Assembly (NCBI GenBank): GCA_028716765.1
Contig: JAQUPC010000046.1
Location: forward strand, 1 to 15,929
Source: Alphaproteobacteria bacterium
Lineage (GTDB): Bacteria > Pseudomonadota > Alphaproteobacteria > UBA9219
DNA: 15,929 bases
Direction: 5' to 3'
The notes under the pieces are model-generated. The model searched no databases. It had not been told where the DNA came from and saw only the letters and a list, made by a program, of their open reading frames with translations. Within the stretch, counting starts at the first letter, position 1. Every line of letters begins with the position of its first letter. Below are positions 7,915 through 15,929 of the stretch, piece by piece. Position numbers and translations under genes: made by a program.

Positions 7915-9543
7915 TCAGGGCTCATCGGGTTTGTAATCCTTCTGGCCGCGAAGGTCCTCGACGATACTAAGCGGCGCGCCCATCCGCGTGACGCGAATGA
8001 TCTCCTTGCCGGGTCTCATGTTCTGGCATTTCCACCGCGTCGTCGACAGAAAGAACTCAGCCGTCTCGTTGGCTACCACGGGCTGATAATACGGCGGCAA
8101 ATAGATCGTGGCCGCCGACCACGGCCCGCAGATGGCAATCCTGTAAATCTCGCCCGCCGGTACGCCGCCTTCCTTGTTCACATAAGCCTGAAGCTTCTCG
8201 GCCGCTTCCTTGAACGAACTGCCCCAGTAATCGAGTTCATAATGGCCGTAGCCGCCCTTAACGCCGCCTGCCAGCGGATTGATGTAAATATACTCATACG
8301 GATGCAACCGGACCATCGGCACGATCTGTGCCGTCATGACAGCCGCCAAACCGGCTACAAACATAATCACGGTAAGCTGCCTGACGTTGTGCGACCTAAT
8401 TTTGACGAGACCATGAAGGCCATATTTAAGAATCTGCTTGATCGCCAGCGCCGCCAGCACACACAAAAGCGGCAGAATAAAAATGAAATGCCTGACGGCG
8501 TCGTACAGCGCCGGATGTCGCGTCACGGCGAAGAAAACCGGCGCGAAAGCCGTTAAAAGCACCATCATAAAGGCGTAGCGGTTCGCCTTTGACTCCAAAT
8601 CCCGCCATATCAACGGCAACAAGGCAATTCCCGAAAGAGTCAGAAAAAGCTGCGGCAAGGGCAACTGCACGGCGAAATAAAGCGGCACGTAATACCACGG
8701 CAATTCCGTCGACATATAAGTGACGCCGTCCAGAAGCACTTCGACATTTTGCGGAAAATGGCTGAATTGAATGAACGCTTTTATGGGATTGGCGATGGGC
8801 GCTTCCTGCGCCCACGGCCAGCAAAACAACATCACGGCATAGGCGATAACGACGACTGGAACGGCCAAACGTACAAGCCGCAAAAACAAAAACAATAACG
8901 AAGGCTTCTCATTCAACCATATAGAGGCCGCATAAAAAACCAGCGACACCCCCCAATAGCCAAGCAGCATGACGCCGCCTACCCGCACGCCAAGCGTCAA
9001 ACCCAAAACAAGGCCGAGCACGACAATCAGACGTTTTGGAACATCGGGAAACGCCCGCAGACTCTTCGTCATGTAATACAGGGTCCACACCACGCCAACG
9101 GCGAATGGAATGTCCTTCGGGTTGTTGAATATATGGCCGTAGTACATAGGCGTCAGCGCCAGAAGGACGAGCGTGACAAATCCCACCTGCCCGCCGCCGA
9201 TCAACCGCCCCAGCCGCCATGCGCCCCACAACCCCAACAATCCGACCAACGCGTTCAGCAAATGCCGCGTGGCGTAAATGCCGAAGGGCGAATAAGCTTC
9301 GAACAACGCCGCCAGCCCGTCGAACATGCCGCCGTAGAGATAAAGATTGAAAATCTGGTTGTAGCGGTGATCGACGAAGCCGGAATTGTAAAAGTCGTAA
9401 ATCGCCTGGCCGTATTGGCTCTGGATTTCCTCGTCCCAACTAACGCCGTAATGGCGGAACGTCAGAAAAACAATGACCGCCAAAACGGCGATAAACAGCT
9501 GCGAGGCCCTGCGATACGTTTTTTCCCCGATCGCAATCAACAT
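7915..9543 (-). CDS. GT39-type membrane glycosyltransferase
   Basis: This 542-residue, very hydrophobic protein has about ten or more membrane segments, the first at about residues 13-29, then a soluble C-terminal region from about 420. WDEE (36-39) just after the first segment matches the acidic DE motif in the first extracytoplasmic loop of GT39/PMT and ArnT-like transferases, where it is the catalytic site. NNPKDIPF (140-147) is a second family-like loop motif. Such enzymes move a sugar from a polyprenyl-phosphate donor onto lipid A, protein or polysaccharide at the periplasmic face; donor and acceptor are unknown here. Its ATG overlaps the end of the MBL-fold gene by 7 bp, so the two are probably translated from one mRNA. 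The C-terminal region may be an acceptor-binding domain. Confidence 0.75.
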   Translation of the reverse strand: MLIAIGEKTYRRASQLFIAVLAVIVFLTFRHYGVSWDEEIQSQYGQAIYDFYNSGFVDHRYNQIFNLYLYGGMFDGLAALFEAYSPFGIYATRHLLNALVGLLGLWGAWRLGRLIGGGQVGFVTLVLLALTPMYYGHIFNNPKDIPFAVGVVWTLYYMTKSLRAFPDVPKRLIVVLGLVLGLTLGVRVGGVMLLGYWGVSLVFYAASIWLNEKPSLLFLFLRLVRLAVPVVVIAYAVMLFCWPWAQEAPIANPIKAFIQFSHFPQNVEVLLDGVTYMSTELPWYYVPLYFAVQLPLPQLFLTLSGIALLPLIWRDLESKANRYAFMMVLLTAFAPVFFAVTRHPALYDAVRHFIFILPLLCVLAALAIKQILKYGLHGLVKIRSHNVRQLTVIMFVAGLAAVMTAQIVPMVRLHPYEYIYINPLAGGVKGGYGHYELDYWGSSFKEAAEKLQAYVNKEGGVPAGEIYRIAICGPWSAATIYLPPYYQPVVANETAEFFLSTTRWKCQNMRPGKEIIRVTRMGAPLSIVEDLRGQKDYKPDEP

Positions 9544-10301
9544 TCGATCACCAACCCGTCATAGGCCGGCTCAACCCCTTTCGGCAAGCGGGCCGCGAGC
9601 TTGGCGTAATCCATGCTGTGATCCATATGCGTCAAGATCGCGCGCGCGGGCTTGATACGTTCGATCCAGCCCAGGACTTTTTCAAGATCGGCGTGCGAGG
9701 GATGCTGCTTCTCGCGTATGCAACTGACGATCCAGACTTTAACGCCATCCAGGGCCGTGAACACGTCTTCGTCCATTTCGCTTACGTCCGTTGTGTAGGC
9801 AAAATCGTTAACACGGTAGCCGAGCGAATGACCCTTTCCATGCTGTAAAGCAAATGGCGTGATGCGTAGCGACCCGAACGCCAAATCGCCTTCGACGATA
9901 TGCGTCTCCAAAAAAGGCCGGCTGAAGTGATTGCCCTTCGGCTCGAAATCGAAAATGTAGCCGAAACGGCTCCGGAGTTCGGCCATCGTGACGGCGTCGG
10001 CGTAAACGGGCACAGGCCCGTTCGCAAGCCAGTTCATGCTACGCAGATCGTCAATGCCGTGGCAGTGGTCGGCGTGCGCGTGCGTATATAGCACGGCCGT
10101 CAGTCGCTGGAGATCGCAACCGAGCAATTGCTGACGCATATCGGGCGACGTGTCGACGAGCAACGCGACATCCCCCTCTTCCACCAAAATGGACGCGCGC
10201 GAACGCCGGTTACGCGGATCGGACGGATCGCACTCGCCCCATTTATTTCCGATCAGCGGAACACCCGCCGCGCTTCCGCAACCGAGGATGGTGATTTTCA
10301 T
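9537..10301 (-). CDS. MBL-fold metallohydrolase, PhnP-like
   Basis: The 254-residue protein is a complete metallo-beta-lactamase-fold hydrolase. GCGSAAGVP (7-15) near the start is typical of the PhnP/RNase Z-like branch. HAHADH (74-79) supplies zinc ligands, with further histidines in LQHGKGHSLGY, DVSEMDE and LTHMDHSMDY. PhnP cleaves phosphoribosyl 1,2-cyclic phosphate, but no phosphonate genes are near; in Alphaproteobacteria this gene commonly follows tatD, where its role is not settled. Its start shares one base with the stop of the upstream DUF559 gene (TAATG). Its likely ribosome site, AGAGGG, lies in the flanking hairpin repeat, so its translation now depends on inserted DNA. It overlaps the downstream glycosyltransferase by 7 bp. 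Confidence 0.9.
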   Translation of the reverse strand: MKITILGCGSAAGVPLIGNKWGECDPSDPRNRRSRASILVEEGDVALLVDTSPDMRQQLLGCDLQRLTAVLYTHAHADHCHGIDDLRSMNWLANGPVPVYADAVTMAELRSRFGYIFDFEPKGNHFSRPFLETHIVEGDLAFGSLRITPFALQHGKGHSLGYRVNDFAYTTDVSEMDEDVFTALDGVKVWIVSCIREKQHPSHADLEKVLGWIERIKPARAILTHMDHSMDYAKLAARLPKGVEPAYDGLVIEC

Positions 10302-10699
10302 TATTTGCCCTCTCCCGTCTTGCGGGAGAGGGAGGGACCCAAGCGCTCTGCGCTTGGGAGGGTGAGGGTATTTCTGTTACTAAGGTTGCTCAAAATAACT
10401 GCCATAACCCCCTCCGTATTGGCGATGATGTCGTTGTTCCAAAAACGAACGACTCTCCACCCTTCTCTCTCCAGCCGAGCCGTGCGGCAAGCATCGGCCC
10501 AATTTTCGGCATGCTGTCCGCCATCGGCCTCAATGATCAGTTGATGCTCAATGCATGCGAAATCAACGATGAATTTCTCTATGGGATGTTGTCTCCTGAA
10601 TTTATACCCGCTGAATTGACGTCCGCGCAACGCTTTCCATAATAAACGCTCGGCTTCTGTAGCTTTTCGGCGAAGTCCACGTGCTTTTTCAATTGCCAT
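10301..10699 (-). CDS. DUF559 endonuclease-like protein, copy 1
   Basis: The 132-residue protein belongs to DUF559, a small restriction-endonuclease-like family related to Vsr mismatch nicking enzymes. Visible motifs are LRRKATEAERLLWKALR (9-25), GYKFRRQHPI (31-40), FIVDFAC (43-49), LIIEADGGQH (54-63) and VVRFWNNDI (83-91). Asp46, Glu57, Asp59 and His63 are the likely metal or catalytic residues. The ATG begins two bases inside the right repeat, which supplies GGAGG about 10 bases upstream. Residues 111-132, rich in P, S, G and R, are encoded by the left repeat and are probably not part of the fold. The stop overlaps the MBL-fold start (TAATG). It is about 56% identical by eye to copy 2 over ~100 residues, so the copies are old paralogues, not a fresh duplication. 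DNA cleavage is family inference. Confidence 0.88.
   Translation of the reverse strand: MAIEKARGLRRKATEAERLLWKALRGRQFSGYKFRRQHPIEKFIVDFACIEHQLIIEADGGQHAENWADACRTARLEREGWRVVRFWNNDIIANTEGVMAVILSNLSNRNTLTLPSAERLGPSLSRKTGEGK
10308..10369. repeat. Left two-hairpin repeat of unit 1
   Basis: Hairpin 1 pairs CCCTCTCCCG (10308-10317) with CGGGAGAGGG (10323-10332) around 5 bases. Hairpin 2 pairs CCCAAGCGC (10338-10346) with GCGCTTGGG (10350-10358) around TCT. AGGGTGAGGGT (10359-10369) then faces the DUF559 gene. The repeat codes for the last 22 DUF559 residues and, on the minus strand, supplies AGAGGG before the MBL-fold start. Confidence 0.93.
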
Positions 10700-10701
10700 A
10701 G

Positions 10702-10761
10702 ACCCTCACCCTCCCGGCCCTACGGGCCGGGCCCCTCCCTCTCCCGCTTCGCGGGAGAGGG
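10702..10761. repeat. Right two-hairpin repeat of unit 1 (inverted copy)
   Basis: ACCCTCACCCT (10702-10712) faces the DUF559 gene. Hairpin 2 pairs CCCGGCCC (10713-10720) with GGGCCGGG (10724-10731). Hairpin 1 pairs CCCTCTCCCGC (10737-10747) with GCGGGAGAGGG (10751-10761). It is the inverted counterpart of 10308-10369, with the second stem changed in sequence but still fully paired. It encodes the C-terminus and stop codon of tatD. Confidence 0.93.
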
Positions 10762-11542
10762 GATAAACCTTATCGAACAGCCGAAAGAAGTTGGCCGTGG
10801 TTTGGGCGGCGATTTCATCATAGCTCACGTTTTTCACTTCGGCCAGTTTACGCGCCGTGTGCGCGACAAAGGCTGGCTCGCATAGCTTGCCGCGATAAGG
10901 CTCGGGTGCAAGATAGGGCGCGTCGGTTTCCACCAGCAGCCTGTCGAGCGGTATGTCGCGCGCGATCGTGCGCAGGCCTTCCGACTTTCCGAACGTCAGG
11001 ATGCCGGAAAAAGAAATGTAAAATCCGAGTTTCAAAGCCTCTTCCGCCAGTTCGCGTTTCGAACTGAAGCAATGCATAACGCCTTTGAGTTTGCCGCCCC
11101 GCCCCTTTCCTTCTTCCTGCAATAAACGGATCGTATCTTCCTCCGCGTCGCGGCTGTGAACAATGAGCGGAAGGCCGGAGGCTATCGCGGCGCGGATATG
11201 TTCGCGGAAATTCCTGTGCTGTTCCTCGCGCGGCGCGTAATCGTAAAAATAATCGAGTCCCGTTTCGCCTATAGCGACGATTTTTTCGTCGTTCGTTAAT
11301 TTAACCAAATCAGCCGCGGTAACACTTTCTCCTTCCTCGGCGCAGTGATGCGGGTGGACTCCGGCGCTGCAGAAAACATCGTCATAGGACGCCGCCGCTT
11401 CGCGCACTTCGGAAAAGCTTTTCATGGTCGTGTTGGCGGTGAGCAGCCGCACAACGCCCGCTTGCCTTGCGCGCGCCACAATTTCGTCGCGTTGTTTCGC
11501 AAGTGCGGGATAATTCAGGTGGCAATGACTGTCGACAAGCAT
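10706..11542 (-). CDS. tatD: TatD family metal-dependent hydrolase (DNase)
   Basis: The 278-residue protein is a TIM-barrel metallohydrolase; TatD proteins are 3'-5' exonucleases or DNases. Metal ligands are visible: DSHCHL (residues 4-9), GETGLDYFYD near 92-101, IVHSRDA, MHCFS and VETDAPYLAP. The ATG at 11542 gives the normal family start (MLVDSHCHL); a TTG nine bases further up has no better ribosome site. TatD proteins usually end shortly after FFRLF. Here the last 18 residues and the TGA stop are encoded by the hairpin repeat at 10702-10761, so the native end has been replaced. It is followed after 6 bp by the DUF559 gene. It would normally be in an operon with metG, from which it is now separated by two opposite-strand genes. 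Confidence 0.95.
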   Translation of the reverse strand: MLVDSHCHLNYPALAKQRDEIVARARQAGVVRLLTANTTMKSFSEVREAAASYDDVFCSAGVHPHHCAEEGESVTAADLVKLTNDEKIVAIGETGLDYFYDYAPREEQHRNFREHIRAAIASGLPLIVHSRDAEEDTIRLLQEEGKGRGGKLKGVMHCFSSKRELAEEALKLGFYISFSGILTFGKSEGLRTIARDIPLDRLLVETDAPYLAPEPYRGKLCEPAFVAHTARKLAEVKNVSYDEIAAQTTANFFRLFDKVYPLSREAGEGGARPVGPGG

Positions 11543-11560
11543 GTTAACCAAGATTTTTTA

Positions 11561-11588
11561 TTGGCTTTGCAGCATAGCCCTGTATAGT
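11561..11588 (+). promoter_or_regulatory. Predicted promoter of the small unknown gene pair
   Basis: TTGGCT (11561-11566) and TATAGT (11583-11588) are spaced 16 bp apart, with a start expected near 11595, about 25 bases before the first ATG. The -10 overlaps that of a minus-strand promoter for tatD. Confidence 0.45.
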
Positions 11589-11608
11589 CCGCTTAACAAA
11601 TTTCGCAA
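11581..11608 (-). promoter_or_regulatory. Predicted tatD promoter overlapping the plus-strand promoter
   Basis: On the minus strand, TTGCGA (11603-11608) and TATACA (11581-11586) are spaced 16 bp apart. Transcription would start near 11574, giving a leader of about 30 bases for tatD, which needs its own promoter because its usual operon partner metG is cut off. Confidence 0.4.
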
Positions 11609-11619
11609 AGGAGATGATT

Positions 11620-11952
11620 ATGAGGGTTATTGGAATTACCGGGTTTGTTATTTTTGAAGGACCTCTTGACGTTGTGACAGAAGCCGCTGATTGGATGAAA
11701 ATGAGCAACCCCGCTTCGAATTTCAGAAGCATCCTGCCGGAAGTGTTTCCTGGCGATACCGTGCGCTGGGGAATGTTTTTCTGTAAAGGCGAACAAGCTC
11801 TTATAGATGGCAAGAGGCCTACGTTTGATTCGGCTGCGCGTCTTATTACAATAAACGGCGGCAATGAAAGGCAACCTGTGCCATATCGCACGTTACTGAT
11901 GACGCCCGAGCAAGTGCCGAACTACGCCTTTATCGACTGCTCGAGGAGATAG
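11620..11952 (+). CDS. Small protein of unknown function, first of a divergent pair
   Basis: I do not recognise this 110-residue protein. It is soluble, without signal peptide or membrane segment, and has an alternating hydrophobic pattern suggesting a small alpha/beta fold (RVIGITGFVIFEGPLDVVTE at the N-terminus). The ATG at 11620 is chosen over 11614 because AAGGAG lies exactly 6 bases before it. The N-terminal EGP (13-15) and the C-terminal PNYAFI (100-105) have counterparts at matching positions in the next gene (EGP 15-17, RNFEFI 99-104), so the two are probably diverged tandem duplicates. The pair runs against the metG-tatD direction and interrupts that gene order. Cysteines at 55 and 107 are not shared. 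Confidence 0.75.
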   Translation: MRVIGITGFVIFEGPLDVVTEAADWMKMSNPASNFRSILPEVFPGDTVRWGMFFCKGEQALIDGKRPTFDSAARLITINGGNERQPVPYRTLLMTPEQVPNYAFIDCSRR

Positions 11953-11984
11953 AAGCTATCCGGAAAATACTATGGAGACGCAAA

Positions 11985-12314
11985 ATGGCCATTAGGGAAG
12001 AATTTATTGCCGCGGCATATGTCGTCGAGGGACCTTTCGAGGAGGTTAACGACTTTCTGGATCAGCTCGACAGCTTTCAACGCAAGCACGGCAAGGGCAT
12101 TTGCGTTTATACTGATAAGCAAGAGGACGATCCGGCCAAATACCGCCTTGCCATCTATTATCAATCCGGCGGCCGGACGGATGCGAATTTCAGGGAAATT
12201 GCCAATCTCATCGCCAAAAAACCTACGCTGGGCGAAGCAAACGAGCCCGTGCGTTCCGAGGACTTTGTGTCCGCGCCGAGAAATTTCGAGTTCATCAGGC
12301 TGACGCAGGAATAA
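11985..12314 (+). CDS. Small protein of unknown function, second of a divergent pair
   Basis: This 109-residue soluble protein is also unrecognised. GGAG lies 7 bases before the ATG. The hydrophobic segment FIAAAYVVEGPFEEVNDFL (7-25) and the ending PRNFEFIRL (98-106) match the ends of the preceding protein in spacing and character (EGP to N[YF].FI is 88 versus 85 residues). The middle is more charged (KQEDDPAKYRLAIYYQ). It begins 32 bp after the first gene, so they are probably co-transcribed, perhaps as partners. It ends 1 bp from the convergent metG stop, with no terminator between. Confidence 0.75.
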   Translation: MAIREEFIAAAYVVEGPFEEVNDFLDQLDSFQRKHGKGICVYTDKQEDDPAKYRLAIYYQSGGRTDANFREIANLIAKKPTLGEANEPVRSEDFVSAPRNFEFIRLTQE

Positions 12315-12315
12315 C

Positions 12316-13866
12316 TCAGGCCTTCTGAGCATCCTCCACAATCCTCGGGAACAAGCCTTGCGGCGCAGGAAGCGGCGCGCCGGGCTTAAGGGCTTGATCC
12401 GCTGTGAGCGCCGCGAAGTTGCGTTGATCCTCCGGCACAGCGAGTTGATCGAGAAGCTTGTTCATCGAGTCCGGCATGAACGGCTGGATCAGAATGGCAA
12501 GGTGACGAAGCGTCTCCGCCAGCACATAGAGCACCGTGGCCATGCGCGCAGGATCGTTTTTCTTTAAGGCCCACGGCGCTTGCTCGTCGACATAACGGTT
12601 CCCGTCGCCGATAACGGCCCACAGCTTGTCGAGCGCTTTGTGAAAGGCCTGAACGTCCATTTCTCCGCGCACCTGCGGCAATAGTTCCCCTGCCCTGCCG
12701 AGCAGCCATTGATCGGCCTCGGTAAAGGCGCCGGGCCTGGGCACTTGCGCGCCGCAGTTCTTTCCGATCATCGACAATACGCGCTGCGCCAGATTGCCGA
12801 GATCGTTCGCCAATTCGCCGTTGATGCGCCGGATCAAGGCGGCATGGGAAAAATCAATGTCATTGCCGAACGGGACTTCGCGCATAATGAAATAACGAAC
12901 CTGATCGAGCCCATAGGTATTGATCAGGTCAATCGGATTGACGACATTGCCCAACGATTTGGACATTTTCTCGCCTTCGTTCGTCCACCAGCCGTGCGCA
13001 AAAACGCGCTTCGGCACTTCAAGTCCCGCCGCCATCAGAAACGCGGGCCAGTAAATGGCATGAAAACGAAGGATGTCCTTGCCGACAATGTGCAGGTCGG
13101 CGGGCCAGAAACGCTGGAAGCTTTCCGAATGAACGTCCGGGAATCCTATAGCCGTCAGATAATTTGTCAGAGCGTCTAGCCAGACGTACATGACATGCTT
13201 AGGCTCGCCCGGCACCGGCACACCCCAGCTTATCGCCGTGCGCGAAACGGACAGATCGTGCAGACCGGATTTAACAAAGCTTGTCACTTCGTTGCGGCGG
13301 TAATGCGGCAGGATGAAATCCGGGTGCGCGTCGTAAAACGCCAGCAGCCGTTCGCCCCACGCCGAAAGCCGGAAGAAATAGCTTGGCTCCTCGACCCATT
13401 CGCACTCTGCGCCGGATGGCGCAATTTTTTTGCTGTTGGGGCCGTCTTTCAATTCGGTTTCCGTATAATAAGCCTCGTCGCGCACGGCGTACCATCCGGC
13501 ATATTTGCCGAGGTAAATCTCGCCGCGCTCAAGCAGCTCCGTCCACAACGCCTGACACGCTTTAATGTGGCGCTCCTCGGTCGTGCGGATGAAATCGTCG
13601 TTAGAAAGATTCAGCGTCTTCGTGAGATCGCGAAAATTCTGCGAAACCTTGTCGGTAAAGGCCTTCGGCTCCATCCCGGCCGCAGCCGCCGATTTGGCGA
13701 TCTTCTGGCCGTGTTCGTCCGTGCCGGTCAGGAAGAAAACGTCATAGCCGTCGAGGCGCTTGAACCGCGCCAGCACGTCGCACGCCAGAGAAGGATACGC
13801 GCTGCCAAGATGCGGAACGTCGTTGACGTAGTAGATCGGAGTGGTGATGTAATAACGGGGGTTCAT
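12316..13866 (-). CDS. metG: Methionyl-tRNA synthetase
   Basis: The 516-residue class I enzyme charges tRNA-Met. The HIGH motif reads HLGS (19-22, after TTPIYYVNDVP) and KMSKS is at 300-304 in NEGEKMSKSLGN. GTDEHGQK (48-55) and the WLDALTNYL region (229-237) are typical of MetRS. The connective domain has WYAVRDEAYY without cysteine pairs, so this is the form without a zinc knuckle. It ends without the C-terminal EMAP-like tRNA-binding domain, as in the short alphaproteobacterial type. It lies 32 bp after holB and is probably co-transcribed with it. No strong ribosome site precedes the ATG. Confidence 0.96.
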   Translation of the reverse strand: MNPRYYITTPIYYVNDVPHLGSAYPSLACDVLARFKRLDGYDVFFLTGTDEHGQKIAKSAAAAGMEPKAFTDKVSQNFRDLTKTLNLSNDDFIRTTEERHIKACQALWTELLERGEIYLGKYAGWYAVRDEAYYTETELKDGPNSKKIAPSGAECEWVEEPSYFFRLSAWGERLLAFYDAHPDFILPHYRRNEVTSFVKSGLHDLSVSRTAISWGVPVPGEPKHVMYVWLDALTNYLTAIGFPDVHSESFQRFWPADLHIVGKDILRFHAIYWPAFLMAAGLEVPKRVFAHGWWTNEGEKMSKSLGNVVNPIDLINTYGLDQVRYFIMREVPFGNDIDFSHAALIRRINGELANDLGNLAQRVLSMIGKNCGAQVPRPGAFTEADQWLLGRAGELLPQVRGEMDVQAFHKALDKLWAVIGDGNRYVDEQAPWALKKNDPARMATVLYVLAETLRHLAILIQPFMPDSMNKLLDQLAVPEDQRNFAALTADQALKPGAPLPAPQGLFPRIVEDAQKA

Positions 13867-13898
13867 GCAGGCTATTAGAGACTATTTTTTTAGCTTTT

Positions 13899-14891
13899 TC
13901 AAGCCGTTGCCCGGCGTATTTCGCAAACTGCGTTCACGAACGCCAGTTTGCGGTCCAGATTAGAATCCACGGCCATAGCAAAGGTTTGGCGCACGTTATC
14001 CCAAAGCCGCAGAGAACGATCGAGCGAGCCTCTTTGGCCCTTCAGCGCTTTTTCCCGGACGCCTTGGCACAGCTTATTGGTCAGCAGATGCGTTATAACG
14101 GAAAAATTATCGCCGTCTCCCTTGCGCCCGATACGGTCGGCCAGCGTATGCAATTTTGCCATATCCAGCGCCGGAAGGCCTTGAAGCAACGCCATCAGCT
14201 CTTCAAAAAGCGGCAACGTTTCCGCCTCCGCCATATTCAAGGCAAACCCTGCGCTGCCGCCCGAAAGTTCGATAAGGCGTTCCATATCGCTTGCAACCAT
14301 GTCGAGACCGGAACGCGCTAAAACAGCGCGAAGCGACGTTTCATCCAGCGGCTGCAACGGCAACATGCGGCAGCGCGAGCGGATCGTCGGCAAAAGAGCG
14401 CCCGGCGCCGTCGCCGTCAAAAGGATCAGGCAGTTCGCCGGAGGCTCCTCGATCACTTTCAAAATAGCGTTTTGGCCGTGACGGTTCAGAGCGTGAGCTT
14501 CGTCGATTATGGCAACGCGCCAGCCGCCGTGCGTGGCGGTCATATGTAAAAAAGGCGCCAGCTTGCGTGCGTCTTCAACGGGAATGGAGTCTTTCGTTTT
14601 GCCGGTTTTTTCATCAAGAGGACGCCGGAGAACAAATAAATCCGGATGCGCTTCGCCCGCGACAAGCCGTGCCGCGGGATGCAACATGTCCAGCTTGCCG
14701 AGCGGATTTTGCCCTCCGGAGAGAACGTAATGGGCCGCATGAAAGGCCAGCGTCGCCTTGCCGATGCCCTCGATGCCGCTCATCAGCCACGCATGCGGCA
14801 TGCGGCCGGAGGCGAAAGCCGCCTCGATTTGCCGCAACGCATGATCATGCCCGATCAAAACCGGATTTTGCGCCGGGGGCAAAATGTTCAT
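13899..14891 (-). CDS. holB: DNA polymerase III subunit delta'
   Basis: The 330-residue protein is the delta' subunit of the clamp loader, which helps load the beta clamp on DNA. It is an AAA+ protein: GIEGIGKAT (39-47) is the P-loop, VAIIDEAHAL (126-135) the Walker B, and TIRSRCRML (169-177) the SRC sensor region. The N-terminal PVLIGHDHALRQIEAAFASGRMPHAWL pattern, here at residues 10-36, is characteristic. In many Alphaproteobacteria holB directly follows or overlaps tmk; here a DUF559-repeat unit separates them by about 500 bp. Its start lies 21 bp from the left repeat, with only a weak AGGC ribosome site. Confidence 0.95.
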   Translation of the reverse strand: MNILPPAQNPVLIGHDHALRQIEAAFASGRMPHAWLMSGIEGIGKATLAFHAAHYVLSGGQNPLGKLDMLHPAARLVAGEAHPDLFVLRRPLDEKTGKTKDSIPVEDARKLAPFLHMTATHGGWRVAIIDEAHALNRHGQNAILKVIEEPPANCLILLTATAPGALLPTIRSRCRMLPLQPLDETSLRAVLARSGLDMVASDMERLIELSGGSAGFALNMAEAETLPLFEELMALLQGLPALDMAKLHTLADRIGRKGDGDNFSVITHLLTNKLCQGVREKALKGQRGSLDRSLRLWDNVRQTFAMAVDSNLDRKLAFVNAVCEIRRATA

Positions 14892-14912
14892 GCGTTGCCT
14901 ATTGAGCGGAGC

Positions 14913-14961
14913 AAAGCCCCTCTCCTCCCTTTGGGAGGAGAGGGGTTTGGGGTGAGGTGGG
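14913..14961. repeat. Left 49-bp hairpin repeat of unit 2
   Basis: CCCCTCTCCTCCC (14917-14929) pairs with GGGAGGAGAGGGG (14933-14945) around TTT. The gene-facing side continues as TTTGGGGTGAGGTGGG (14946-14961). The DUF559 stop codon lies two bases further in. Confidence 0.95.
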
Positions 14962-14963
14962 TC

Positions 14964-15311
14964 TTAATTCTCATCGATCCTGTTCTCCCAATATGCCAGT
15001 ATTGTTTCTAGAACAATTTCCGTCTTGGTAAGAATGTCATTATTCCAAAAACGCAGCACACGCCAATTCTGTGTTTCCAGCCATGCCGTGCGTTCGACGT
15101 CCTTGGCGTTTTCGGCATGCTGACTGCCGTCAGCCTCAACAATCAAAGAATGCTCGACACAAGCAAAATCAGCAACGTAAGGGCCGACAGAATGTTGGCG
15201 GCGAAATTTGTAGCCACATAATTTCCGGCTGCGCAACATAGACCACAAACGTATTTCAGCATCTGTAGGTTGTTTGCGCAAACGGCGGGATACTATTTTA
15301 TTATACACCAT
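14964..15311 (-). CDS. DUF559 endonuclease-like protein, copy 2
   Basis: The 115-residue protein (from the ATG at 15311) is a compact DUF559 member. Motifs are LRKQPTDAEIRLWSMLRSR (11-29), GYKFRRQHSV (33-42), YVADFAC (45-51), LIVEADGSQH (56-65) and VLRFWNNDI (85-93). Asp48, Glu59, Asp61 and His65 match copy 1 with the same spacing. An upstream GTG at 15326 lies inside the repeat and would add only GWNI-type residues; the ATG gives the usual family start, with GAGGTG from the repeat 12 bases upstream. The stop lies two bases from the left repeat, so unlike copy 1 the protein has no repeat-coded tail. Family relation to Vsr and PD-(D/E)XK nucleases suggests DNA cutting or nicking. Confidence 0.88.
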   Translation of the reverse strand: MVYNKIVSRRLRKQPTDAEIRLWSMLRSRKLCGYKFRRQHSVGPYVADFACVEHSLIVEADGSQHAENAKDVERTAWLETQNWRVLRFWNNDILTKTEIVLETILAYWENRIDEN

Positions 15312-15321
15312 GATGTTCCAG

Positions 15322-15370
15322 CCCACCTCACCCCAAACCCCTCTCCTCCCAAAAGGAGGAGAGGGGCTTT
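15322..15370. repeat. Right 49-bp hairpin repeat of unit 2 (inverted copy)
   Basis: CCCACCTCACCCCAAA (15322-15337) faces the gene. CCCCTCTCCTCC (15338-15349) pairs with GGAGGAGAGGGG (15355-15366) around 5 bases, then CTTT. It is the reverse complement of 14913-14961 with a single difference, in the loop-proximal base. Confidence 0.95.
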
Positions 15371-15392: not shown

Positions 15393-15929
15393 CTATGCAT
15401 TTCCTGTAAGGGCAAAGAATTGCGTCACGGCCGTGCGAATGTCGGCGGTTACTTTGTCCTGATTTTGGGAAGCGTCGATCACGTTAAAACGATGCGGCTC
15501 CATTTTCGCAAGATCCAGAAATCCGGCACGCAACATTTCATGAAACTTCTTATGCTGACGCTGATAGCGGTCGTCAGGACCGCAGCGCGAGGCCATGCGC
15601 TCCAAACCTGTCTCAACCGGTACATCGAGCAGCAGCGTCAAATCGGGCCAGAAATCTCCCGCGATCTCTTCATATATGGCGTCGACTTTCTCGAGACCGA
15701 GGCCAAGGCCGATGCCTTGATAAACGCGCGCGGAGTCGACGAAACGGTCGGAGACGACCCAAATCCCTTTTTCAAGCGCGGGCCAGACGGTCCGCACCAG
15801 ATGTTCGCGCCGCGCCGCCATGGTCAGCATCAATTCGGTCATCGGATCCCAATGGCCTTCGGCTTTGCCGAGCCAGAGCGAACGGATATCTTCAGCGCCC
15901 GGCGCGCCGCCGGGCTCGCGCGTGGCAAT
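15393..15929 (-). CDS. tmk: Thymidylate kinase (5' partial)
   Basis: The enzyme phosphorylates dTMP to dTDP. The frame stays open to the right edge without a stop: the edge codes for IATREPGGAPGAEDIRSLWL, and TREPGG is the family signature. This is followed by AARREHL, SDRFVDSARVYQG (the DR[FY] motif) and a lid region with RCGPDDRYQ. The N-terminal P-loop and about 40 residues are outside the window. It is the first gene of the tmk-holB-metG-tatD run on this strand, and its stop lies 22 bp from the right repeat of DUF559 unit 2. Confidence 0.94.
   Translation of the reverse strand: MATREPGGAPGAEDIRSLWLGKAEGHWDPMTELMLTMAARREHLVRTVWPALEKGIWVVSDRFVDSARVYQGIGLGLGLEKVDAIYEEIAGDFWPDLTLLLDVPVETGLERMASRCGPDDRYQRQHKKFHEMLRAGFLDLAKMEPHRFNVIDASQNQDKVTADIRTAVTQFFALTGNA

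Follow-up and report, generated by a model that had tools for sequence, protein, structure and literature searches.

DUF559 nuclease genes between inverted triplex-type hairpins: a candidate class of minimal bacterial mobile element

We analysed a 15,929-nt stretch of an alphaproteobacterial genome (contig JAQUPC010000046.1, assembly GCA_028716765.1), termed the window, which contains two small genes of the DUF559 nuclease family (PF04480), each enclosed by its own pair of inverted hairpin repeats. DUF559 genes are linked with such repeats in both phyla that we sampled. The resulting unit of gene and ends is very probably mobile, and each unit is likely a minimal mobile element, or a descendant of one, that resembles the REP/RAYT system and is built on a Vsr-like PD-(D/E)XK nuclease. 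With somewhat more reserve, we favour the view that these units represent a class of bacterial mobile element, with a Vsr-like PD-(D/E)XK nuclease as its sole enzyme and triplex hairpins as its ends, and that the BoxC/PIT/TM repeats would derive from it, those of E. coli too, with ycjD as the putative founder gene whose ends have decayed.

Inverted ends accompany DUF559 genes in two phyla

Relatives were sampled by means of a protein scan, which led to two species whose genomes served as centres. Among 240 Alphaproteobacteria genomes 77 yielded a DUF559 match, with an E-value of 2.5e-17 or better in 58. Of the best 72 rows of this search, two were dropped because of an internal stop; the remaining 70, together with two loci of genome G002 (Planctomycetota) and both units of the window, formed the analysed set of 74 genes, and the weaker rows were left out. 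We aligned the 400-bp flanks of each gene locally in inverted orientation and compared the scores with those of 425 sliding intervals from the sampled loci (median 10.5, 99th percentile 14.5, maximum 17). The DUF559 flanks exceeded the 99th percentile of the controls for 56 of 74 genes, with a median of 23, and scores of at least 16 were reached by 53 of the 74 versus 1 of 425 sliding controls. A separate Planctomycetota sample, with one locus per genome (L178–L199), gave 19 of 22 loci over the same threshold; just two same-locus controls were possible there, neither of which passed. Gene-bounded controls exceeded the threshold in 6 of 30 cases for Y1_Tnp and in 3 of 30 for holB.

Twelve of the 44 named records found were examined, and seven passed: Azospirillum lipoferum (25.5), Sinorhizobium meliloti (104), Sinorhizobium K101 (46), Neisseria gonorrhoeae (16), Sphingomonas parapaucimobilis (32.5), Deinococcus psychrotolerans (57) and Pseudanabaena (63, with a variant sequence). 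The other five remained below the threshold, namely E. coli KE47 (9.5), Klebsiella (10), Synechocystis B12 (12.5), Azospirillum brasilense (14) and Picosynechococcus (14.5). One-sided copies of the motif were observed at the DUF559 gene of E. coli, Klebsiella and A. brasilense. At one planctomycete locus (L193, genome G348) the DUF559 gene lies within an inverted repeat scoring 192, with repeated blocks and an internal CCTCTCCC hairpin.

The two window units and their mirror feet

The two units, given in the forward-strand numbering of the window, are composed as follows:

10308–10761, entire unit A (454 bp), flanked by an MBL-fold gene (9537–10301) and tatD (10706–11551)
10308–10368, plus strand, left end of unit A: hairpin at 10308–10332 with a CCCTCTCCC arm, a second hairpin in the spacer, and the foot GGGTGAGGG at 10360–10368
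10370–10699, minus strand, DUF559 gene A (PF04480); the open frame extends across the left element and ends at a stop codon (10301–10303)
10703–10761, minus strand, right end of unit A, the inverted counterpart: foot complement at 10703–10711, hairpin at 10737–10761
14913–15370, unit B as a whole (458 bp), in the 501-bp gap from holB (13899–14891) to tmk (15393–15842)
14913–14961, plus strand, left end of unit B: 49-nt arm with stem CCCCTCTCCTCCC/GGGAGGAGAGGGG, loop, spacer TTT and foot GGGGTGAGGTGGG
14964–15326, minus strand, DUF559 gene B (PF04480); its frame starts at a GTG and shares 5 nt with the right arm
15322–15370, minus strand, right end of unit B: 49-nt arm, 98% complementary to the left end

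Both proteins matched PF04480 far above the curated cut-off of 20.6 bits (131.8 and 131.0 bits; E-values of 1.1e-38 and 2e-38 for A and B). Apart from PF04480, a Pfam search up to E 1 returned for these two genes only the sub-threshold family PF18741, and no Y1 transposase (PF01797). Membership in the Vsr mismatch endonucleases (TIGR00632) was rejected, as the scores of 18.6 and 13.8 bits compare with a cut-off of 97.85, indicating a shared fold only. The residues E24, D53, E64, D66 and H70 were invariant across the 74 DUF559 proteins. A passage of PMC1189080 groups the DUF559/YcjD family with the Vsr-like PD-(D/E)XK nucleases. For this family, including NGO0050 (PDB 3hrl), no repeat partner is described in the papers that we found.

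The ends of unit A are complementary over 33 nt at 85% and over a further 14 nt exactly, and the foot of its left end is oriented toward the gene. Its right end shares sequence with the codons at the end of the tatD frame, and the hairpin ends (10301–10332 and 10706–10761) are traversed by the frames of DUF559 gene A and of tatD, so that the element provides the final codons both for its own gene and for the neighbouring one. Gene B contains an in-frame ATG five codons downstream of the GTG start. The arms of the two units show little likeness, with cross scores of 10.25–11.5 versus 24 and 46.5 for their own ends. A strict scan for a hairpin plus mirror foot (7-bp stem, foot free of mismatches except A-to-T) matched these four ends and no other place in the window.

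The first-pass annotation of the window had described two DUF559 genes about 4.6 kb apart in inverted-hairpin units of 454 and 458 bp, which we could confirm, the spacing between the genes being 4606 bp. Its description of the two repeat families as sharing a related core but being distinct is fair in view of the cross scores. The short element that it placed between hairpin and gene is present, although not as a simple tag: hairpin and foot together form a mirror repeat of the triplex, BoxC-like type. In most variants, the foot next to the gene reads as the stem's purine arm in mirror image, each A being either kept or turned to T. This is clearest for unit B, where the stem arm GGGAGGAGAGGGG is mirrored by the foot GGGGTGAGGTGGG with two A-to-T changes.

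An asymmetric core was present in 69 arms, of which 47 fitted the mirror reading better than a direct-copy reading, 16 fitted both equally well and 6 fitted the mirror reading worse. The mean normalised match of these asymmetric cores was 0.86 for the mirror and 0.67 for the direct reading, with 0.63 (standard deviation 0.018) for shuffled cores. A strict scan located a mirror element within 250 bp of the gene at 61 of 74 loci and at 15 of 22 Planctomycetota loci, whereas in the remaining locus sequence of the first set 8 of 148 strands contained a mirror element and 2 of 148 a direct one. For asymmetric stems, loci with only the mirror form outnumbered those with only the direct form by 16 to 0, and by 5 to 1 in the Planctomycetota. 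Using a 6-bp stem, triplex elements were detected within 300 bp of 62 of 72 DUF559 genes (both sides 42, one side 20, none 10) and on both sides, one side and neither side of 15, 3 and 4 of the 22 Planctomycetota genes, respectively. The same scan gave 0 of 30 for Y1_Tnp, 1 of 30 for holB and 2 of 56 for random intervals.

The foot of the nearest element faced the gene in 123 cases and away from it in 18, and where elements stood on both sides, both feet pointed toward the gene in 48 of 59 cases. The foot base opposite an A of the stem arm was A in 63 cases, T in 47, C in 9 and G in 7, a count that favours T as the place was picked with A-to-T permitted. A purine-motif intrastrand triplex uses the code G.GC, A.AT and T.AT. 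The repeats match this code at the level of sequence and are predicted to be triplex-forming.

Dispersed copies follow the gene

Gene-less ends of the same kind are dispersed in the genomes, in several of them as inverted pairs. We counted motif copies in the same 240 Alphaproteobacteria genomes with one broad form of the motif, gene-flanking copies included, placing the 19 genomes with weak DUF559 matches among the 182 others. At least one copy was present in 50 of 58 DUF559 genomes versus 22 of 182 others (Fisher 9e-26), and at least ten copies in 33 of 58 versus 5 of 182 (Fisher 1e-19), with median copy numbers of 13 and 0, respectively. Restricting the comparison to genomes of at least 2.5 Mb, any copy was found in 43 of 48 with DUF559 versus 17 of 72 without. 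Likewise, for 149 Planctomycetota genomes the corresponding counts were 14 of 23 versus 17 of 126 for at least one copy (p 4e-6) and 12 of 23 versus 7 of 126 for at least five (p 2.5e-7). The broad pattern undercounts, as genome G188 scored 0 despite many copies of a variant.

Comparing 35 copies from six genomes with the ends of the fetched gene, some other DUF559 genes of these genomes being left aside, we observed a clear likeness in three (G016, G053 and G150). One planctomycete genome (G325) contains 398 motif copies, some of which form runs at C1 569456–570561 and 799177–804285, partly at 173–174 bp spacing, on a contig that also carries a DUF559 gene at 817187.

Signs of movement

The clearest case was found in G188, where a unit of 659 bp, with the outer hairpins as its boundaries, follows a stop codon. 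The unit is missing from all three genus mates, which keep both neighbouring stretches (about 73–84% identical). The spacer between the aligned stretches measures 106, 72 and 97 bp in the mates, and 106, 108 and 98 bp in G188 after subtraction of the unit. A second copy of the unit in G188 encodes a protein 87% identical to the first; the blastn homology spans hairpin to hairpin and no further, and a permissive alignment extends beyond one end with many gaps. The same genome contains at least 39 gene-less copies of the inverted pair, 86–97% identical to the unit's own, with a length of 120–127 bp in 28 of 31 measured and with mostly unrelated flanks. None of the 31 scored pairs showed a target duplication of 4 bp or more. 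Four copies (L229, L242, L245 and L260) share one flanking sequence, indicating spread within a longer duplicated segment.

For unit B, the 30 best-matching relatives provide a comparison: tmk and holB are separated by about −13 to 73 bp in 25 of them and by 169, 268, 404, 1046 and 1216 bp in the others. Subtracting unit B from the window gap leaves 43 bp, within the range of these 25. A relative without a DUF559 match (L113, genome G005) contains, as judged by eye, several hairpin repeats in the same gap. The loci L019, L021, L024, L037, L039 and L174 share flanks, and several comparisons aligned these flanks but not the unit, as if the unit were old or replaced in place. L174 is from Sphingomonas, where the DUF559 gene has a GatB/YqeY-domain gene on one side and dnaG on the other, with carA nearby.

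Pairing of proteins and repeats

Proteins A and B are 55% identical and their ends are unlike, which fits a correlation between protein and repeat. For paralogous units within one genome, protein identity correlated with repeat similarity (rho 0.51, permutation p 0.007, 23 pairs), and restricting the analysis to the most similar paralogue pair per genome gave a rho of 0.61 (n 17). Recently duplicated units contribute to this correlation, as would be expected if the gene travels together with its ends. Across genomes, the correlation was weak (rho 0.17, p 0.01, 56 units).

These data bear on several statements of the first-pass annotation. The co-variation of proteins and repeats that it suggested checking is seen within genomes and weakly between them. 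Its idea that each protein has its own cognate repeat finds a basis in the paralogue correlation, while a strict one-to-one assignment is not supported, since some paralogues share repeats and the dispersed copies resembled the gene's ends clearly in three of six genomes. Its central proposal of a RAYT-like system built on another enzyme is supported for architecture and behaviour, given the dispersed copies, the paralogue co-variation and one empty site. It had further reasoned that the association would be due to chance if most DUF559 genes lacked hairpins or if unrelated genes were flanked equally often; the counts (56/74 and 19/22 versus 6/30 and 3/30) point the other way. To this the present analysis adds an empty site, the BoxC kinship, the triplex code and the general occurrence in two sampled phyla.

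Kinship with BoxC/PIT/TM and E. coli ycjD

The purine-motif triplex code connects these repeats with a known motif. Holder et al. 2015 (PMC4666352) report that a triplex motif rich in G/C is present in more than 260 genomes, with 23 copies in E. coli MG1655, and tie it to genome instability. Isolated E. coli single strands are reported there to form a triplex as judged by circular dichroism and nuclear magnetic resonance, with no stable triplex in vivo. According to the same paper, transposases or integrases were never found near the motif and its origin was left unanswered; its main text contains no word starting with "DUF" or "nuclease". The DUF559-flanking repeats share with BoxC/PIT/TM_ECO, as described there, the order of pyrimidine arm, purine arm and purine foot as well as the intergenic and dispersed location, and differ in that the known motif is described without a linked gene. 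Unit A has in common with it the CCCTCTCCC/GGGAGAGGG stem and the GGGTGAGGG foot. At all four window ends the foot is of the purine type and mirrors the stem's purine arm (A to A or T), as is typical of BoxC/TM. They deviate from the E. coli consensus CCCTCNCCCN3-6GGGNGAGGGN3GGGNGAGGG, since in unit A a second hairpin replaces the N3 and in unit B the stem is longer. Judged by the triplex mirror code of their sequences, the DUF559-flanking repeats are relatives of BoxC/PIT/TM.

YcjD is the DUF559 protein of E. coli, and its gene lies between fabI and sapF. Two of the 12 motif copies of E. coli KE47 are located within about 265 bp downstream of ycjD, and the fabI–ycjD gap of K-12 contains degraded copies and one intact copy. 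Within the open-licence papers searched, we found none that joins DUF559 genes with triplex repeats. A gene between two triplex repeats in at least two phyla is a candidate agent for BoxC/PIT/TM and, if this is true, a widespread nuclease family of unknown function would acquire a role. Both ycjD and BoxC are present in E. coli K-12, so that the question can already be put to the test.

Proposed mechanism and its alternatives

The element would consist of one DUF559 gene, encoding a PD-(D/E)XK nuclease of the Vsr/I-Bth0305I fold, between two inverted ends. Once single-stranded, each end would fold into a purine-motif intrastrand triplex made of a pyrimidine arm, a purine arm and the mirror foot toward the gene. 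The nuclease would recognise the folded end where it is exposed on single-stranded DNA, for example at replication forks, and would cut at or near it. The freed element, or the break, would then be joined elsewhere by host replication and repair. We assign the joining to the host because the enzyme class hydrolyses DNA and has no known rejoining activity. That the nuclease is the agent acting on the ends appears likely to us, with cleavage and strand joining as the steps that we infer; how an element could spread by means of a nuclease alone would then be a question of enzymology.

The repeats could instead be moved by another agent, such as host replication slippage or an unlinked transposase, with DUF559 as a genome guardian that removes triplexes or mismatches and is found among the repeats because it either acts on them or tolerates them. 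This is unlikely in view of the two-sided elements, whose feet point toward the gene on both sides in 48 of 59 cases, and of the whole unit being duplicated and, compared with the genus mates, inserted with its ends at the hairpins. A different structure of the ends, namely G-quadruplexes instead of triplexes, would leave the remaining model in place. A canonical four-run motif is indeed present in the purine strand of 67 of 125 elements, all selected by the mirror rule, yet the other 58 lack it, for example those whose runs are GG or whose arm and foot are separated by a long second hairpin, and the foot bases opposite a stem A are mostly A (63) or T (47; the selection favours T). Together with the reported circular dichroism and nuclear magnetic resonance data that favour a triplex in the isolated strand of E. 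coli, none being stable in vivo (PMC4666352), this renders the G-quadruplex quite improbable.

We give very little weight to the possibility that the hairpins are bidirectional transcription terminators insulating an acquired gene. GC-rich hairpins adjoining the gene ends would suit such a function, but the two ends of a locus match each other and yet differ between loci, the window hairpins are not followed by a long T run (as judged by eye), the gene-less copies mostly have unrelated flanks, and most control genes lack such hairpins. In addition, no role in termination is known for a mirror foot. Earlier work cited in the main text of Holder et al. found no promoter or terminator activity of the E. 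coli motif (PMC4666352).

Several observations weigh against a mobile element driven by its own nuclease. Neither cleavage nor movement was seen directly, the empty site relative to G188 is not base-exact, the genus mates being about 73–84% identical there, and a comparison of five 43-kb Azospirillum stretches gave no insertion with the motif measuring at least 60 bp. Cross-locus pairs of flanks also scored above the sliding controls (median 11; at least 16 in 61 of 400) because the ends share a motif, so that part of the flank signal reflects the common motif. The direct-copy reading of the foot also fits 45 of 74 loci and 11 of 22 in the Planctomycetota, where the remaining locus sequence contains a mirror element on 8 of 44 strands and a direct one on 4. 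Seven of 72 sampled genes have neither strict elements nor over-threshold inverted ends, and the E. coli ycjD elements are one-sided, the nearest ones being degraded in K-12. In 16 of 37 cases, the ends of a unit resembled each other no better than they resembled an end of a paralogue. The co-occurrence statistics ignore the relatedness of the genomes, and the motif is present in 22 of 182 genomes lacking a strong DUF559 match. The dispersed copies were unlike the ends of the fetched gene in G187 and G065, with partial likeness in G039. Finally, the Planctomycetota genome G386 contains 358 motif copies and no DUF559 match; these repeats may be orphans, or the assembly may lack the gene.

Comparison with known systems

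The units resemble REP/RAYT in having a single small gene flanked by two inverted hairpin repeats, dispersed and paired copies and, in some genomes, more than one gene–repeat family. They differ in the enzyme, a PF04480 PD-(D/E)XK nuclease instead of a Y1 transposase, and in the mirror foot with triplex code at the hairpin. REP/RAYT and IS200/IS605 elements act on single strands. The GT(A/G)G head given for REP/RAYT in a passage of PMC2817692 is absent from the window feet GGGTGAGGG and GGGGTGAGGTGGG. Membership in REP/RAYT is thus ruled out by the different enzyme and the absence of this head, while the behaviour is RAYT-like as far as visible. The IS200/IS605 family, related to the RAYTs, makes no larger target duplication according to the same source (PMC2817692). 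Hairpin ends without target duplication are accordingly a likeness to both systems, with an unrelated enzyme.

The homing endonuclease I-Bth0305I (PDB 3r3p), of the EDxHD family, sits in a mobile intron, whereas the DUF559 gene is free-standing between repeats. Genes A and B also lie free-standing between other genes and are not encoded in an intron or intein as EDxHD homing endonucleases are. TnsA of Tn7 works with the joining enzyme TnsB; in contrast, no partner gene is present inside the DUF559 units.

Other features of the window

An Rfam scan of the window returned a single tRNA gene (RF00005; 3503–3589, minus strand) and nothing else. Two small open frames (11614–11952 and 11985–12314) without a Pfam match up to E 1 lie between tatD and a frame at 12316–13866, which presumably resembles methionyl-tRNA synthetase.

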